A stretch of DNA of 20,616 bases, from positions 1-20,616 of the IMG/VR virus record IMGVR_UViG_3300037071_005426; one strand, 5' to 3'. The notes under the pieces were generated by a model. That model saw only the letters and a program-made list of their open reading frames with translations, was not told the DNA's origin and did no database searches. Within the stretch, counting starts at the first letter, position 1. Each line of letters opens with the position of its first letter. Of the stretch, positions 789-8,270 are shown piece after piece. A program made the position numbers and the translations under genes. Source of the DNA: a virus.

Positions 789-921
789 GCATATGGGGAC
801 GCGATGCAGCCCCCCCTCCCCCCGGGTCCTCTGGTATAGCCTACCCACCAGAATCCAGACATCGCTGATTTTCACAAGTGCACAAAGTCTCACGTCGCAA
901 CTCTCTGACCTGCGGTTTCTA

Positions 922-952
922 GTTTAGGGTTGACGAACATCGTCTAATGTAG
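922..952 (+). promoter_or_regulatory. Promoter-like conserved element, copy A
   Basis: GTTTAGGGTTGACGA (922-936) and CGTCTA (941-946) match copy B at 6161-6191 exactly, with only the four bases between them differing. The element precedes the packaging operon. TTGACG looks like a -35 box, but a TAATGT -10 box would sit only 9 bases away, so a normal sigma70 promoter does not fit. The downstream edge TGTAGAAGAG resembles the start region of single-subunit phage RNA polymerase promoters. It also contains a dyad, GACGA-ACA-TCGTC, so an operator is the alternative. Confidence 0.6.
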
Positions 953-954
953 AA

Positions 955-975
955 GAGCCTGAACTTGAGAGGCTC
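955..975 (+). other. Hairpin just after promoter-like copy A
   Basis: GAGCCT (955-960) pairs perfectly with AGGCTC (970-975) around a 9-base loop. It would lie a few bases from the 5' end if transcription starts near 952. Copy B also has a hairpin in this place, so a 5' mRNA-stabilising stem is plausible. Confidence 0.45.
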
Positions 976-1115
976 AGGGCGGAGGAGCGAGGGTGAGTCC
1001 CGCTCCGGGCTGCACGGCTGCCAACCGCCCGTCGCAGTTGACTTGCGCGACCAGTTGCGCGGACACCTATGCCCTCATCAGGGTGACAATCTACCGCAGG
1101 AGCAAGGGGCGACGT

Positions 1116-1514
1116 ATGCCAGAGTGGGATGACCCGGAGAAGGCACAGGCAGCCTCCCGCAAGGGAGTGAAGCGCCGACAGGAGCTGGCGAAGCTGGCCC
1201 GGGAGGACCCGGACGAGTACATGCGCCAGCGGTTCGCGTCGGAACGCAGCGGTCTGGCGACCCTCCTCCTCGACGCGGCCTACGGTCGCGGGACCTTCGC
1301 GACCTCCTGGACCGTCACCCGGGAGTGCGAGCACGGCCACGAGGTGGAGGTCTTCGTCGAGCAGCCCCTGCTGGACCCGGCGAAGCGCCTGGCGGCCGTC
1401 ACCAAGGCCATGGAGTACGCCTACGGGAAGCCGCAAGTCGGAAGGGCGACGGGCAGCGAGAACGAGGCCAAGAAGAAGGAGGAGCCGGAGACCACCGGCT
1501 TCGTCGTCGAATAG
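1116..1514 (+). CDS. Putative terminase small subunit-like protein (132 aa)
   Basis: This is the first convincing gene of the window and heads the packaging operon, two genes upstream of the large terminase. The chosen ATG follows AGGAG (1098-1102) and AAGGGG (1104-1109). An in-frame upstream start at 993 would add about 41 residues that look like translated leader. The N-terminal half is a basic, charged helical stretch (KRRQELAKLARE). The middle region reads LLLDAAYGRGTF, then LDPAKRLAAVTKAMEYAYGKPQ, which resembles small phage packaging proteins where similar 'aleyayGkP' endings occur. The C-terminal 25 residues are Lys/Glu-rich and probably disordered. No helix-turn-helix can be assigned with certainty, so the small-terminase role rests mostly on position and size. 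A DNA-recognition function at the adjacent repeat-rich region would fit. Confidence 0.5.
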   Translation: MPEWDDPEKAQAASRKGVKRRQELAKLAREDPDEYMRQRFASERSGLATLLLDAAYGRGTFATSWTVTRECEHGHEVEVFVEQPLLDPAKRLAAVTKAMEYAYGKPQVGRATGSENEAKKKEEPETTGFVVE

Positions 1515-1525
1515 GCGCCATCCTG

Positions 1526-1546
1526 CCGCTTACGGCCTGTAAGCGG
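1526..1546 (+). terminator. 8-bp hairpin after the first gene
   Basis: CCGCTTAC (1526-1533) and GTAAGCGG (1539-1546) form a perfect 8-bp stem with loop GGCCT, 12 bases after the stop codon. No T-run follows, so it may act as an attenuator, a processing site or a Rho-independent terminator of the type common in high-GC genomes. The next gene starts 56 bases on. Confidence 0.45.
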
Positions 1547-1601
1547 TGCTCCGCTCCCTGTTATCCACCGAACCGGCACGCTCGTGCCCAAAGGAGTACC
1601 G

Positions 1602-2453
1602 TTGTCCAAGTACACCGGCTGGACCCAGTCTGGCGGCGGCACCTACGAAGCGAGCATCGACACCACCCCCACCTTGCCCGCGGGGCTCTACGGAACGGTC
1701 CGGACCCAGTCCGGCCTGTACTTCATCCTGGAGGAGCAGAGCGACCGTGAGCTTCTCCGGTTCCCTGACTCCCCCGGCGACGCGGTCGTCGACGAGCTGG
1801 CCGACTTCTGGACCAAGGCCGAGCAGTTCGACAAGCACGGCCTCCCCCACAAGCGGGGGGTCCTGCTGTACGGCCCTCCCGGCTCCGGGAAGACCTGCAC
1901 GGTCCAGCTCATCTGCCGCGACGTCATCGCGCGGGATGGCCTGGTGTTCGAGTTCTCCGGCGCTTTCGCTGGAGCCTACGGGGTGCTACGGTCTGTCGAA
2001 CCCGAGCGACCCCTAGTCGTACTGATGGAGGACATCGACTCCATCATCACCCCCCAGAACGAGTCTGGCATCCTCCAGGTCCTGGACGGCATCGGGGCCA
2101 TGCGGAAGGTCGTGTTCATCGCGACCACCAACTACCCCGAGCGCCTCGGCGACCGCCTCGTGAACCGGCCCTCCCGCTTCGACCGCAAGGTCCTGGTGGG
2201 CCACCCGAGCGCAGCCGGGCGCCGCATGTACCTCGAGAGCCTCATGGTGGACGGGGACAGCTTCGACGTCGAGCGCTGGGTGGCGGACACCGAGGACCTC
2301 TCCATGGCGCACGTCAAGGAGCTGTTCGTGGCGGTCAACATCCTGGAGAACCCCTACGAGCAGTCGCTGGCGGACCTGCGGGGCATGAAGCGACGTGCAA
2401 CGAGTGACGACGGCGACCCTGTGCTCGACGCTGGGTTCGGGAGGTACGCGTAG
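1602..2453 (+). CDS. AAA+ ATPase (283 aa)
   Basis: A classic-clade AAA+ ATPase. The Walker A motif GPPGSGKT is at residues 91-98, Walker B VVLMEDID at 139-146 with catalytic Glu143, sensor-1 ATTN at 174-177, and the arginine-finger region NRPSRFDRK at 188-196. An N-terminal domain of about 80 residues precedes it and could hold substrate. There is no membrane segment and no protease or nuclease domain. The TTG start is chosen because AAGGAG (1591-1596) sits five bases upstream. An upstream in-frame GTG at 1584 would place that site inside the coding region. The gene sits between the small- and large-terminase genes and ends in TAGTG, where the next gene begins. Proteins of this clade are ring unfoldases or remodelers. 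Here it may remodel the packaging motor or act on capsid or host proteins, which is inference. It is clearly distinct from the packaging ATPase, encoded separately at 2647. Confidence 0.85.
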   Translation: MSKYTGWTQSGGGTYEASIDTTPTLPAGLYGTVRTQSGLYFILEEQSDRELLRFPDSPGDAVVDELADFWTKAEQFDKHGLPHKRGVLLYGPPGSGKTCTVQLICRDVIARDGLVFEFSGAFAGAYGVLRSVEPERPLVVLMEDIDSIITPQNESGILQVLDGIGAMRKVVFIATTNYPERLGDRLVNRPSRFDRKVLVGHPSAAGRRMYLESLMVDGDSFDVERWVADTEDLSMAHVKELFVAVNILENPYEQSLADLRGMKRRATSDDGDPVLDAGFGRYA

Positions 2454-2647
2454 TGGACGACCGCAGCGCAGTCAGCGCACGCATCGAGTCCATCGTCGAC
2501 GCCATCAACGAGGCGTTCGAGGACGGCGACGGGGACGTGGACGAGCTGGAGGACAAGGACCTCGACGCGCTCATCAACGTCATCCTGGACAAGCAGGCGG
2601 CGGAGCACGAGGCGGTCTGCGACGACGAAGACTGTGAGGGCGCGTAG
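2453..2647 (+). CDS. Small acidic protein (64 aa)
   Basis: A short, strongly acidic protein, largely helical by composition (ESIVDAINEAFEDGDGDVDELEDKDLDALI). The C-terminus carries two cysteines in VCDDEDCEG. The GTG start overlaps the ATPase stop by one base, and GGGAGG at 2439-2444 gives the ribosome binding site. It ends in TAGTG, overlapping the large terminase start by one base, so all three genes are translationally coupled. The DGDGDVDELE stretch loosely recalls a calcium-binding loop but lacks a full EF-hand. It is not recognised as a family. Close coupling suggests a partner or regulator of the ATPase or terminase, possibly a DNA-mimic-like acidic factor. That is speculation from charge and position. 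Confidence 0.75.
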   Translation: MDDRSAVSARIESIVDAINEAFEDGDGDVDELEDKDLDALINVILDKQAAEHEAVCDDEDCEGA

Positions 2648-4158
2648 TGGCGAAGCGTGTCGTCCTGAACCCAGGGGCGCAGAAGGCCTTCGTCAAGAAC
2701 GACGCCCGCGCCTCCGCGTTCATCGGCGGGCTGGGCAGCGGCAAGACGTTCTCCATCATCACCCGTGGACTGGAGTTCTCGAGCCAGCCCCTGGCCGAGG
2801 GCACCATGTACGGCCCGCGCGGCCTGGTGGGCGCCACGTCCTACGGCGTGCTCCGCAAGGTCGTCCAGCCCCAGTTCTTCGAGCTGCTCGAGGGGACCGG
2901 CCTCTGGAAGACGGGCAAGCGAACCACGTCCTGGCAGAAGAGCGAGATGAAGGCGTCGCTCATCGCCAACTGCGGCTGTGCCGACCCGCACGGCTGCGAG
3001 CACGTGACCGAAATCTTCCTGGCGTCGCTCGACGACCCGGACGAGCTGCGAGGCATGGAGCTGTCCTGGTTCGCCATCGACGAGGGCCGCAACACCACGG
3101 CCTACGCGTGGGAGGTCCTGTATGGGCGTCTCCGCCAACAGGGTTACAAGCACGGCGGTTGGGTCGGTTCGACTCCCAACGGCTTCGATTGGATGTACTC
3201 CATGTTCCACCCTGACTCGCCAAAGCGCCTCGACGGCGCGGTTTGGTTCGGGGCGCCTACCATGGAGAATGTCCACCTGCCCGACTCATACATCGAGGGC
3301 CTTACCGCCATGCACCACGGGCGGCAGTACGAACAGGAGGTTCTTGGTCATTTCGTCGGGATGACGGAGGGCGCGGTCTACTTCGAGTGGGACATGAAGG
3401 ACGCTGCCCATCGCATCGAGTACGACCCCAAGCTCGAGCTGTACAGCGAGTGGGACTTCGGGATGGGCGACCTGAACGTGGTCCTGTTCTTCCAGCTCTC
3501 GTGGCGCGAGCACCGCCCGCCGGGCGAGTTGCAGGCCACGCTCATGCTGCCCGTCAAGCACTACGTCGGGGCCATGGAGGCGAACAACGTCATCAGCGGC
3601 GACTGGGCCAAGCGGTTCCACGCGTACTGTGACCAGCACTTCTCCGGGCGGCGCCCGAAGCTGAACATCGGCGACCCCGCCGGGCGGCAGAGGAACCAGG
3701 TGACGGGCACCTCGGTCATCGACGACCTCTACTACCACGGCGTGACCATCACGCCCGCCCCGAAGAAGCCCGTCGACTACGCCGTGCGCATCATGAACAA
3801 CATGATGGCTGACCACCGTATCCTGGTCGACAAGGACCGGTGCGAGCGCCTTGGACAAGCGCTCGCATCGCACAAGTGGGCGATGAACGCCCTTGGGGTG
3901 AAGACCAGCAACACCCCCGTGCACGACTGGACGTCGCACTACAGTGACGCCGCTCGGTACGGGACCACCATCGTCATTCCGAACGTACCCACCGCGAAGG
4001 CCGCACTCCCCGAGCCCGAATACGGGCCCGGCACAGCGGGCTACATCTTCGGCCAGGTGCTCGCTCGCGAAGACGACGACGACGAGTGGCTCGGCGAGCA
4101 GGACGACGAGGAACCCATCAAGTGGGTCCCGACGGCCATGCGCCCCCGCGCCTCATAG
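2647..4158 (+). CDS. terL: Terminase large subunit (503 aa)
   Basis: This is the DNA-packaging motor and nuclease. The N-terminal ATPase has Walker A GGLGSGKT (residues 27-34), Walker B WFAIDEG (141-147) and the coupling motif GSTPNG (174-179). The C-terminal RNase H-like nuclease begins at EWDFG (268-272, first metal-binding Asp270) and ends with HDWTSHYSDAARYG (426-439), whose Asp434 is the likely last catalytic acid. Length is normal for the family. The GTG start overlaps the preceding stop and has GAGGG seven bases upstream. A Cys/His-rich insertion (C109, C111, H115, C117, H119) lies just before Walker B and is not part of the usual fold. The acidic, disordered C-terminus (EDDDDEWLGEQDDEE) may bind the portal, which is encoded next. 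The family call is secure. Confidence 0.95.
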   Translation: MAKRVVLNPGAQKAFVKNDARASAFIGGLGSGKTFSIITRGLEFSSQPLAEGTMYGPRGLVGATSYGVLRKVVQPQFFELLEGTGLWKTGKRTTSWQKSEMKASLIANCGCADPHGCEHVTEIFLASLDDPDELRGMELSWFAIDEGRNTTAYAWEVLYGRLRQQGYKHGGWVGSTPNGFDWMYSMFHPDSPKRLDGAVWFGAPTMENVHLPDSYIEGLTAMHHGRQYEQEVLGHFVGMTEGAVYFEWDMKDAAHRIEYDPKLELYSEWDFGMGDLNVVLFFQLSWREHRPPGELQATLMLPVKHYVGAMEANNVISGDWAKRFHAYCDQHFSGRRPKLNIGDPAGRQRNQVTGTSVIDDLYYHGVTITPAPKKPVDYAVRIMNNMMADHRILVDKDRCERLGQALASHKWAMNALGVKTSNTPVHDWTSHYSDAARYGTTIVIPNVPTAKAALPEPEYGPGTAGYIFGQVLAREDDDDEWLGEQDDEEPIKWVPTAMRPRAS

Positions 4159-4167
4159 GAGTCCGGC

Positions 4168-6147
4168 ATGGAGATGCTCCGCGAGTACAAGAGTGACGCC
4201 GACAAGGTGAAGGTGTACAACCACCGCCTCAAGCAGGCGCAGGACATGTTCGACCAGTGGGGGAAGCCCGCCGCTGAGGAGTGGGTCGGTCGCTACGAGG
4301 GGCGGCCCATGAAGAACCAGCAGACCGGCAAGGGGCACCGCGTCTCCGTGCCTGACGGCACCAGCATCATCGACTCCCTGTTCTCCAGCATGACGGCGGC
4401 CGACGTCGACATCATCGCGGAGGCGGTAGGCAGCGGCACGCTCGAGCAAGAGGAGCTGACCACCGCGGCCGTCAGCAAGGAGTGGGACGAGTGCAAGGTC
4501 AACGAGCACACGGCCCCCGGCATCAAGGACTCCCTGCTCGTCGGCATCGGGTGGGCGAAGACCACGTACGAGTACTACGTCGAGGAGCAAGAGCTGCCAC
4601 GCGCGATGGACGACATCAGCATGGAAATCGACGCGATGCTCAAGCAGGCGGAGGACGCGGGGTCAGACATCGACTTCGACACCATCGCGGCTGCGGTCCC
4701 GGTGACCGAGGTCCAGGAGACCGTGCTCAACGCCAAGGTCAACGTCGACTACGTCCCCTGGGACAAGATGCTGTTCGACCCGACGGCGAAGACGGTCGAG
4801 GACATCCGCTGGTACGCGCAGGTGACCCTCATGCCCGTCGAGCAGGTCATCGAGAACCCCGTGTTCAAGGAGTACTGCAAGAAGTCGGGCACCTCGAAGA
4901 AGCTCAAGGACCTCCGCGGTGACTCCACCATCGACACCAGCATCTTCGGCGACGACGCGCCGTACGGCGTGGCGGACGAGGACACCCGCGTCACCGTGTA
5001 CGAAATCGCGGACCGCGAGACCGGCACCATCTGCACGATGGCCCGCAACGCGGACTTCTTCCTGAACGAGGCCCCCAACCCGCTGGCCATCAACGACCAC
5101 GGCGAGGACTGGGCCCCGTTCGTCCCGCTCATCCTACGCAAGAGCCCCGGGCGCGTCCGGGGCATCAGTGAGATGGAGCTGATGCTCCCGACGCTGCGCG
5201 AGCTGGACCTGTACCACAGCCGCCTGGCCACGTTCATCGAGCGCTTCGCGCCCAAGTTCCTGGTCGAGGAGGGCGCCATCAGCGAGGCTGGGAAGCGGGC
5301 CCTCCGCTCGCAGGAGTACGGCACGGCCGTGGAGATGAAGACCGGCCGGGTCAACGACATCAAGGACCTGGTGGTCCCCCAGCTCCCCGCCGAAATCTTC
5401 GCGGTGCCGGACAAGCTCCAGCAGGCGTTGCGTGAGGCGACGGGCGTGAACGAGCTGATGCGAGGCCTGTTCCCGGACCGGAAGCGGACGGCGACGGAGA
5501 CCGCCGAGGTGGTGTCCGCGAGCGCCGCGCGCCAGGCCGAGAAGCGCGTCCAGCTCGAGCGCTGGTATACCGCCATCGCCCGTCGGATGCTCCAGCTCAT
5601 GCAGATGTTCTACACCGAGGACCGCATGGTCCGGTACATGGACTGGGACGGCCCAGTGGAGTGGCAGTGGACGGCCGACGACATCGTCTTCGAGACGAAG
5701 CTCGAGGTCAGCCTGACGCCGAAGGAGAACAAGACCCGGCAGTCGGAGCGCGACGAGGCCCAGCTCATGCTGAACACGTGGGGCCCGCTGACCCAGCCCG
5801 ACCCCGCGACCGGGGTCCGGATGGTCGACCCGACCCAGCTCTACCGCCTGGTCGGCAAGAAGTTCGGACTCAAGCGGAAGGAGCTGGCGCTCCTCATGCC
5901 CACGCCGGAGGAGCAGCAGATTCAGCAGCTCGCTGCCCAGCAGGGCGCGGCCGGGATGGCATCGGCCCAGCAGGGCCTGGTCGACCCGACCATGGTGCCG
6001 GGTCCCCTCCCCGCCGACGAGCTGGCCGCGGCCACGAACGCGGGCCAGGTCCCGCCGGAGCTGATTGCGGCTGCTCAGGGCATCGGCCCCGGCGGCCCGC
6101 TCGGGTCCGAAATCCTCTCGGAGGACCTCGGGGTGGCCGGAGCATAA
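4168..6147 (+). CDS. Portal protein (659 aa)
   Basis: The portal forms the ring at one vertex through which the terminase pumps DNA and to which the tail attaches. Support is its size, its position directly after terL and portal-type stretches such as VDYVPWDKMLFDPTAKTVED and ATGVNELMRGLFPDRKRTAT. The latter is a helical region typical of the portals of podovirus-like phages, where the segment 'reaTGvnelmrG..' recurs. The Gln/Ala/Gly/Pro-rich C-terminal 90 residues (from about EEQQIQQLAAQQ) look flexible. The ATG is preceded by AGGAG that overlaps the terL stop codon (4157-4161), six bases away. The gene is followed at once by a hairpin and the second promoter-like element, marking the end of the packaging operon. 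Confidence 0.85.
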   Translation: MEMLREYKSDADKVKVYNHRLKQAQDMFDQWGKPAAEEWVGRYEGRPMKNQQTGKGHRVSVPDGTSIIDSLFSSMTAADVDIIAEAVGSGTLEQEELTTAAVSKEWDECKVNEHTAPGIKDSLLVGIGWAKTTYEYYVEEQELPRAMDDISMEIDAMLKQAEDAGSDIDFDTIAAAVPVTEVQETVLNAKVNVDYVPWDKMLFDPTAKTVEDIRWYAQVTLMPVEQVIENPVFKEYCKKSGTSKKLKDLRGDSTIDTSIFGDDAPYGVADEDTRVTVYEIADRETGTICTMARNADFFLNEAPNPLAINDHGEDWAPFVPLILRKSPGRVRGISEMELMLPTLRELDLYHSRLATFIERFAPKFLVEEGAISEAGKRALRSQEYGTAVEMKTGRVNDIKDLVVPQLPAEIFAVPDKLQQALREATGVNELMRGLFPDRKRTATETAEVVSASAARQAEKRVQLERWYTAIARRMLQLMQMFYTEDRMVRYMDWDGPVEWQWTADDIVFETKLEVSLTPKENKTRQSERDEAQLMLNTWGPLTQPDPATGVRMVDPTQLYRLVGKKFGLKRKELALLMPTPEEQQIQQLAAQQGAAGMASAQQGLVDPTMVPGPLPADELAAATNAGQVPPELIAAAQGIGPGGPLGSEILSEDLGVAGA

Positions 6148-6163
6148 CCCCAGCTCAGGGGTT
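6146..6163 (+). terminator. Hairpin at the portal stop codon
   Basis: AACCCC (6146-6151) pairs with GGGGTT (6158-6163) around AGCTCA. The stem overlaps the TAA stop and the first three bases of promoter-like copy B. A weak terminator separating packaging and capsid transcripts is likely. The T-tract is only TTTA. Confidence 0.45.
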
Positions 6164-6191
6164 TAGGGTTGACGATTTGCGTCTACTATGG
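6161..6191 (+). promoter_or_regulatory. Promoter-like conserved element, copy B
   Basis: GTTTAGGGTTGACGA (6161-6175) and CGTCTA (6180-6185) are identical to copy A at 922-952, with the same 4-base spacing. The right edge reads CTACTATGGAGGG, which recalls single-subunit phage polymerase start regions (compare CTATAGGG). It drives, by position, the scaffold and capsid genes. Aligned with copy A, the likely first base is G6191. Spacing excludes a normal -35/-10 pair. A repressor site using the dyad GACG-N5-CGTC is the alternative. Confidence 0.6.
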
Positions 6192-6210
6192 AGGGCACCG
6201 CTTGTGCCTT
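6192..6210 (+). other. Hairpin just after promoter-like copy B
   Basis: AGGGCAC (6192-6198) pairs with GTGCCTT (6204-6210) around CGCTT, seven pairs with one G-U. It would sit at the extreme 5' end of a transcript starting at 6191, mirroring the stem after copy A. Confidence 0.45.
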
Positions 6211-6228
6211 CGTGAAATGTGCATCACC

Positions 6229-7322: not shown

Positions 7323-8270
7323 ATGGCATCAGGAACTGGCCAGCTCGACGAAATCATCGCGACGACCTTCGACAAGGTTCGTCCGGTGCTCGCCGACCAA
7401 ATCACGGTGGAGCTTCCGCTGCTCGCCGCGCTGAACTCGAAGGGTTCGGTCGTGGAAGACGGCGGTAAGCGCATCGTCAAGCCCGTGCTCTACGCATACA
7501 ACGACACCGTCGGCTCGTACGACGGTTACGACCTCATCGACACGACCCCGCAGGACGGGTTCGGCGAGGCCGTGTACGACTGGAAGCAGTACGCCGGTGC
7601 CGTCACCATCGACGGCCGTACCGAGCGTCTGAACTCCGGCTCCGCGCAAATCATCAACATTCTGACTGCGAAGATTGAGCAGCTCCGGGTGTCGATGGAA
7701 GACGACCTGAACTCCATGCTGTGGGGTCTGGGCACTGGGAACTCCGGCAAGGACTTCCTCGGCATCCAGGCCATCGTCGCCGCCTCCGGTACGCTCGGTG
7801 GCATCGACCCCAGCACGGAGACGTGGTGGAAGTCCCGCGCCGACACGGCGATGGACCTGACCACCATCGACGGCGTGCGCGACATCGGCGCGATGTTCAA
7901 CGGTCTGCGTATCGCGAAGTCCTACCCGGACTTCGGGTTCACGACCCAGGCGGTCTTCGAGGCCTACGAGGCCCTCGCCGCCCCGAACATCCGCTTCGAG
8001 AGCCCGCTCAAGGCGGACCTGGGATTCCAGACCGTCTCGTTCCGGACAGCGGAAGTCATGTTCGACGCCGACTGCCCGTCCGCGACCTGGTACTTCCTGA
8101 ACAGCAAGCACTTGCAGTTCGTGAAGCACTCCAGCGCGTGGTTGAAGATGCTCCCCTTCGCGAGCCCTGTGAACCAGGACGCGAAGACCGCACTCGTCAT
8201 CTCGATGGGTGAGCTGGTGACCGACGTCCGTCGGGCACACGGAGTCATCTCGGGCATCGTCACGTCGTAG
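7323..8270 (+). CDS. Major capsid protein, HK97-type fold (315 aa)
   Basis: The principal shell protein. It follows the scaffold at the expected position and has the expected size. The segment VYDWKQYAGAVTIDGRTERL and the following QIINILTAKIEQLRVSMEDD, a long spine-helix region, are typical of small HK97-fold capsid proteins from podovirus- and siphovirus-like phages. The N-terminus (QLDEIIATTFDKVRPVLADQ) is a short arm with no long propeptide, in keeping with a separate scaffold. The late segment KTALVISMGELVTDVRRAHGVISGI resembles the P-domain or A-domain end of the fold. Codons are tighter than in the neighbours (many GGT, CGT), as in highly expressed genes. A UUCG hairpin follows 16 bases after the stop. 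Family membership is fairly secure, but no fold comparison was run. Confidence 0.85.
   Translation: MASGTGQLDEIIATTFDKVRPVLADQITVELPLLAALNSKGSVVEDGGKRIVKPVLYAYNDTVGSYDGYDLIDTTPQDGFGEAVYDWKQYAGAVTIDGRTERLNSGSAQIINILTAKIEQLRVSMEDDLNSMLWGLGTGNSGKDFLGIQAIVAASGTLGGIDPSTETWWKSRADTAMDLTTIDGVRDIGAMFNGLRIAKSYPDFGFTTQAVFEAYEALAAPNIRFESPLKADLGFQTVSFRTAEVMFDADCPSATWYFLNSKHLQFVKHSSAWLKMLPFASPVNQDAKTALVISMGELVTDVRRAHGVISGIVTS

Follow-up and report, generated by a model that had tools for sequence, protein, structure and literature searches.

Matched promoter-like elements before the packaging and capsid operons of an uncultivated phage, and their drifting counterparts in related phages

What reads the two nearly identical elements that precede the packaging and capsid operons of a phage known from a sequence record? 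The window, that is, the whole stretch analysed here (20,616 nt of the IMG/VR record IMGVR_UViG_3300037071_005426), is a 20.6-kb fragment (G000) of this virus's genome that does not include the early region; its features are collected in Table 1. The two elements, P1 and P2, were recognised by the match between GTTTAGGGTTGACGAACATCGTCTA (922-946) and GTTTAGGGTTGACGATTTGCGTCTA (6161-6185), which are identical in 21 of 25 bases and differ in the four central ones. The pattern GTTTAGGGTTGACGnnnnnCGTCTA is present exactly twice in the window, at these two positions, and no further copy of the 25-base element with up to three mismatches was found in it. This match is not due to chance, since the highest 25-mer identity between the two intergenic regions was 21, compared with at most 19 in 300 dinucleotide shuffles, and since relatives carry matched pairs as well. 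The sequence-only reading had described the match, the position of each copy before a separate operon and a -35-like TTGACG (930-935 and 6169-6174) lying 9 bases from any -10-like box. All three observations hold: packaging genes follow P1, capsid genes follow P2, and the distance to TAATGT or TACTAT measures 9 bases. The proposed length of 25 bases does not, as the conserved unit reaches about 957 and about 6195 through a TAnnnT-(A)GAGGG block common to the relatives.

Table 1. Features of the window that bear on P1 and P2.
Feature	Position	Strand	Basis or remark
Conserved block TTTTCACAAGTGCACAAAGT upstream of P1	869-888	+	Common to L006/L007
Upstream site A, CTGACCTGCGGTTT	905-918	+	Common with the virion-operon promoters of relatives; absent before P2 of the window's virus
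Promoter-like element P1, before the packaging operon	922-957	+	Sequence comparison; counterpart at the same place in relatives
P1, variable box GTTTAGGGTTGACG	922-935		
P1, CGTC	941-944		
P1, -10-like TAATGT	945-950		
P1, purine block AGAAGAG	951-957		
Hairpin just after P1, GAGCCT/AGGCTC	955-975	+	6 bp (955-960/970-975), 9-nt loop; P2 hairpin differs in sequence
First gene after P1, small protein, function not assigned, small-terminase position	1116-1514	+	52% identical in L005
Terminase large subunit (TerL), packaging operon	2647-4158	+	phrog_2, 4.6e-18
Portal protein, packaging operon	4168-6147	+	PF23899, 1.9e-17
Promoter-like element P2, before the capsid operon	6161-6195	+	Sequence comparison; relatives
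P2, variable box GTTTAGGGTTGACG	6161-6174		
P2, CGTC	6180-6183		
P2, -10-like TACTAT	6184-6189		
P2, purine block GGAGGG	6190-6195		
Hairpin starting in the P2 purine block, GAGGGCAC/GTGCCTTC	6191-6211	+	8 bp with one G.U (6191-6198/6204-6211)
Scaffold-like gene, first of the capsid operon after P2	6377-7288	+	Position and acidic composition; no family match
Major head protein	7323-8270	+	phrog_9953, 1.7e-63

This phage is without a close cultured relative: searching the phage collection gave no match at the DNA level and one distant match with the portal protein, and a search of genome contigs with the head protein gave none. The IMG/VR contig L003/L004 is identical to the window over 11,457 bases and adds 1,432 bases leftward. 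The stretch to the left of P1 (1-920) is long, GC-rich and repeat-rich, lacks evident genes and is possibly a packaging or terminal region. Within the packaging operon there is an AAA ATPase gene (1584-2453; PF00004, 5.3e-15) that was not detected in the relatives compared. In several relatives the leaders of the packaging and capsid operons, the places of P1 and P2, contain tRNA genes (L016 589-2245 and 6291-6695; L020 28-1555 and 5795-6236; L081 6413-6486), up to 21 of them in one 9.7-kb contig; the search gave none for L004, the contig with the left half of the window.

Protein searches of IMG/VR led to about sixty related loci. The exact motif of the window, allowing up to five substitutions, was absent from the first relatives fetched, and eleven IMG/VR relatives (one weakly) have a matched pair of their own at the same two places. 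L005, whose head protein is 85% identical to that of the window, carries GTTTAGGGTTACACnnnGGGGGTCAC twice, L006 carries GGGTTGCnnnnnTGCGCTACnnGTAGAGGG twice and L008 GGTTGCCnnnTAAGTGTGTTCTAGGGAGG twice; other own pairs are those of L017, L019, L038, L039, G003, G010 and G012. The best 30-mers of these pairs share 23-28 identities, with shuffled controls reaching at most 23, and the pair of G004 is weaker (21/30). When each P1 was compared with every P2, the own partner gave a mean of 24.6 identities in 30 and the foreign ones a mean of 18.8 and a maximum of 22, the own P2 being the best partner for 11 of the 12 genomes. Only G001 departs from this: its P2 is located past the 300 bases compared, and its full region gives 26/30. 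The same comparison showed no matched pair in G007, G011, G013, G014 and several fragments. Elements of this type are matched within a genome and drift between phages. Recent duplication alone was discarded as the source of the copies, as it would not place them at the same syntenic positions in every relative.

Six larger relatives, examined genome-wide by intergenic comparison and weight-matrix scans, contain three to five copies each: five in G003 (203+, 6235+, 36639+ and, with a one-base shift, 36624- and 32648-), four in G008, five in G010 and three each in G006, G005 and G012. Matrix matches reached at least 44 bits and the next best anywhere in these genomes at most 12.2 bits, with no weaker copies in between. 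G003 was taken as complete because its ends overlap with 253 of 254 bases identical; G006 and G008 have repeated ends too. The third G003 copy stands before the gene for DNA polymerase A (PF00476, 2.5e-67) and a divergent one faces the primase/helicase operon, and divergent sets were also found in G010, G006, G008 and G005, so that the operons preceded by copies are packaging, capsid, polA and primase/helicase. As with the phage-sigma promoters of the phiEco32/7-11 type, the same element stands before several late operons at conserved places. The sequence-only reading had proposed a non-standard, phage-specific promoter-like element with a recogniser encoded outside the window, and these sets, matched within each relative and extending to further operons, bear it out. 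The copies thus form a small phage regulon of putative promoters whose specificity drifts phage by phage. Repeated units of the GCGTTTCACCATCTGCAGTA type also occur between genes in the right-hand part of G002 (39427-39482 and 40590-40625), with equivalents in G004.

Almost every copy is directed into the operon that follows it. After three of them (G008 207, G005 7006 and G012 25184) a crude gene caller placed a small opposite-strand ORF, so the orientation is not proven for every copy. This general orientation, and the presence of copies before the polA and helicase operons, argue against a role of the elements as operators for a repressor or as sites of DNA replication or packaging, a reading that we regard as highly improbable. 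What speaks for it is the dyad GACG-N5-CGTC in both copies of the window's virus, already noted as a possible operator, and the location of P1 near packaging genes; however, no dyad of at least 4 bp is common to the copies of any of 14 other genomes, and because the dyad is unique to the window's virus the operator idea loses its footing.

An alignment of 41 elements from 15 genomes, with anchors set by hand at T|(A)GAGGG, revealed a conserved unit of about 36 bases composed of two unlike halves. Numbering from the purine block, T(-1) is present in 90% of the elements and G at +2, +4, +5 and +6 in 75-84%; GGTT is frequent at -23 to -20 (weighted by genome), and conserved bases extend to about -29. 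The constant 3' half (TAnnnT followed by GAGGG or GGAGGG) is joined to a drifting 5' half, mean element identity being 0.65 within genomes and 0.35 between them. Middle promoters of the T4 type have a -10 that strongly matches TATAAT; here the hexamer is imperfect, TAnnnT being seen in the window, G008 and G010, whereas several relatives have 7-mers (TACCTGT, TACTAGT) and the G005 elements lack it (CAGTAGC). Such an arrangement is what would be expected if a host component read the 3' half and a phage component the 5' half, and the drift of specificity from phage to phage suggests that the reader of the latter is probably phage-encoded.

If the last T of TAnnnT is set at -7, GTTTAGGGTT occupies -35 to -26, with 13 bases between it and the hexamer, and the full box GTTTAGGGTTGACG extends over about -35 to -22. 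This is the register of the T4 MotA box, located at -35 to -26, centred at -30 and combined with a host -10 (PMC2988021); in the window, GTTTAGGGTT-N13-TAATGT/TACTAT has the box at the 12-13 bases upstream of a host-type -10 expected of a T4 middle-type promoter, in the place of a -35. On these grounds we favour, with moderate confidence, the reading of the two elements as promoters of one phage-specific regulon, used by host RNA polymerase together with a phage factor that binds the box; the promoter role, the reading by the host polymerase and the identity of the box reader are what we infer from sequence comparison. The 3' half would be recognised by the host polymerase with its sigma, and the 5' half (GTTTAGGGTTGACG in the window) by a phage DNA-binding factor made early. 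As the box shares the MotA register, this factor may stand in for sigma region 4 at -35, and, once early transcription has taken place, it would turn on the operons for replication, packaging and capsid.

Differences between hosts could also account for the drift if a host alternative sigma factor (of the extracytoplasmic-function type, or sigma54) or a host activator read the elements and the phages had adapted to different hosts. We find this improbable. The CGTC before TA recalls the -10 motifs of extracytoplasmic sigma factors, but the upstream boxes are unlike their known motifs. GG-N10-GC, with the -24/-12 spacing of sigma54, occurs in P2 of the window, L006, L019, L038 and L039, but it is missing from P1 of the window, G001, L008 and G003, so the elements as a set do not follow the sigma54 pattern. 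Moreover, a query containing upstream site A matches almost exclusively records of actinobacteriophages, and Actinobacteria are not known to have sigma54.

Of 27 P1/P2 elements, 18 have site A (TGACC[A/T]G, core CTGACCTGCGGTTT, in either orientation) within the interval -60 to -16, as does 1 of 14 others; the classes were split by hand, and the background is 2.3% of random 45-base windows. Site A marks putative promoters of virion genes, not those of replication genes. Occurrences include L008 194, L019 716, L039 84, G003 193 and others, and intergenic regions of Mycobacterium and Streptomyces phages have the site too. Searched against the annotated phage collection, the query with site A retrieved 326 records, all but one from phages of Actinobacteria; with E-values of 0.3-4 among the matches listed, which are weak, this suggests actinobacterial hosts as a lead. 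As a 15-mer, site A occurs in at least 120 viral contigs, a count near the estimated chance expectation and therefore not interpretable alone. Site A combined with GGGTTG was found in 16 contigs, of which the newly fetched non-family ones showed no terminase, portal or head-protein homology.

The downstream side of the elements raises another alternative. As the sequence-only reading had stated, a hairpin lies within a few bases of each copy, and hairpins recur at P2 of several relatives. For the 45 bases past the boundary of 25 elements, the mean folding z was -0.99, compared with -0.14 for random windows; the signal was strongest at the P2 copies, many of whose stems have their first bases within GAGGG. 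The hairpins start 1-7 bases past the last T of the hexamer, and the usual sigma70 gap from hexamer to start is 6-7 bases. Their positions would fit a start inside GAGGG with a 5' stem better than a standard sigma70 start. Antitermination sites of the nut/boxB type were discarded, as the P1 and P2 hairpins have unlike sequences and leave no conserved boxB.

Hairpin placement is the main point in favour of an analogy with promoters of a single-subunit phage RNA polymerase (T7, SP6 or N4 type), in which GAGGG would begin the transcript and the stem stabilise its 5' end. Uniformity within genomes, drift between them and a conserved purine start block are likewise typical of such promoters, and TTTAGG..TGAC and CTATGGAGGG are reminiscent of SP6. 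The earlier suggestion of such a polymerase nevertheless did not survive the searches. PF00940 was absent from 20 relatives, including the complete, five-copy G003; the search gave no match in control genomes and detected both T7 and N4, added as positive controls. The convincing matches to polymerase motif B in large ORFs were DNA polymerase A genes, a 1,874-residue virion protein (L116 3908-9529, G003) had no polymerase match, and no T7-type, DPBB-motif or virion polymerase was found in the relatives. This virion protein contains a weak ParB-like stretch and is kept in about ten relatives. Given 20 relatives without the enzyme and a search able to find T7 and N4, the reader is probably not a T7-type polymerase; for the window's own virus, whose genome is incomplete, the presumed absence derives from its relatives. 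The element is also about 13 bases longer than a T7 or SP6 promoter and does not have the form of a unit of about 23 bases from -17 to +6. Altogether, we consider a single-subunit polymerase very improbable.

The other recogniser that had been suggested, a phage sigma factor, fared differently: a protein resembling sigma region 4 is encoded in relatives, but a search of 16 records at E<=1 detected no sigma region 2, although 11 of 14 control genomes match. A complete phage sigma of the phiEco32/7-11 style, reading both halves, is therefore unlikely. The bipartite element, the conserved positions with drifting sequences and the region-4-like proteins would suit it, as in 7-11 (PMC8948821), but nothing similar to region 2 was seen in the candidate proteins.

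These candidates, of roughly 120-190 residues, have a sigma-region-4-like helix-turn-helix and lack region 2. They were detected with PF08281 in eight records, and a profile built from six added G008, G010 and L074; ORFs of this kind are present in G002-G004, G006, G008, G010, G012, G014 and L074. One branch shares an N-terminal motif (WYxxhGxxYxxxDWGxRxxxGES) and the C-terminal helix-turn-helix. L074 and L072 are above the Pfam Sigma70_r4 cut-off (1.4e-7 and 4.5e-7), PHROG 11138, with no assigned function, links several of the proteins, and phmmer gave a match to SigF region 4 (0.00087). An AlphaFold model of the L074 protein had a mean pLDDT of 63, with the helix-turn-helix region scored best, and its top Foldseek matches were sigma region-4 domains (E at least 0.011). 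Across the diverse set of these sequences no stretch was sufficiently conserved to serve as a query for related loci, and a close pair used as query returned only the two records already known. Elements and a region-4-like gene coexist in G003, G004, G006, G008, G010 and G012, that is, in 6 of 7 genomes having both elements and early genes, and G007 has neither the repeated elements nor the protein. G005 carries three elements, and its region-4-like match is a 73-residue helix-turn-helix protein heading the packaging operon; the association is thus incomplete, the G005 factor being missing or unrecognised. The region-4-like protein is a candidate reader of the box, although co-occurrence is not proof. 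Tentatively, a stand-alone protein of this kind, without region 2, may take over the -35 function of the holoenzyme at three to five promoters per genome, factor and box co-evolving so that almost every related phage would have arrived at a specificity of its own.

If this is so, these phages would provide a natural series of rewired specificities: about a dozen boxes, each presumably having a reader of its own, stand before the same operons, joined to a constant half probably read by the host. Such a series would open the evolution of promoter recognition to testing and could yield small orthogonal promoter/factor pairs for high-GC bacteria, and the elements would point to a gene-expression switch of an uncultivated phage group.

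The redirection of host polymerase to phage-specific promoters is known; the combination of constant and variable halves with a region-4-like protein lacking region 2 appears to be new. The promoters of T7, SP6 and K11 resemble the present elements in being uniform within a phage and divergent between phages, with a conserved G-rich start and 5' stem-loops, and differ in their length (23 bases, about 36 here) and in having a polymerase gene, of which none was found in the relatives. T4 middle promoters combine a MotA box with a host -10 through sigma appropriation (PMC2988021, PMC6755090). Like the putative promoters described here, they have a phage box of about 10 bases at -35 to -26, 12-13 bases from a host-type -10, and no usable -35 hexamer; unlike them, T4 has nearly 60 such promoters, not three to five, and the elements of these phages have a different box that drifts and a much more conserved purine block past the -10. 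For conserved positions with changed sequences, the best comparison may be Salmonella phage 7-11, a phiEco32-like phage whose gp47 sigma reads GTAAtg-16-aCTA late promoters; between 7-11 and phiEco32 the promoter positions are conserved and the sequences changed, with the phage sigma as reader (PMC8948821). Those phages are unrelated to ours and their hosts probably differ, and here no sigma region 2 was detected and the element couples a box that drifts to a TAnnnT/GAGGG block that stays constant. Both groups keep promoter positions while sequences change between phages, and in both, according to our proposal, the host polymerase serves late operons with the help of a phage-made specificity factor homologous to region 4.
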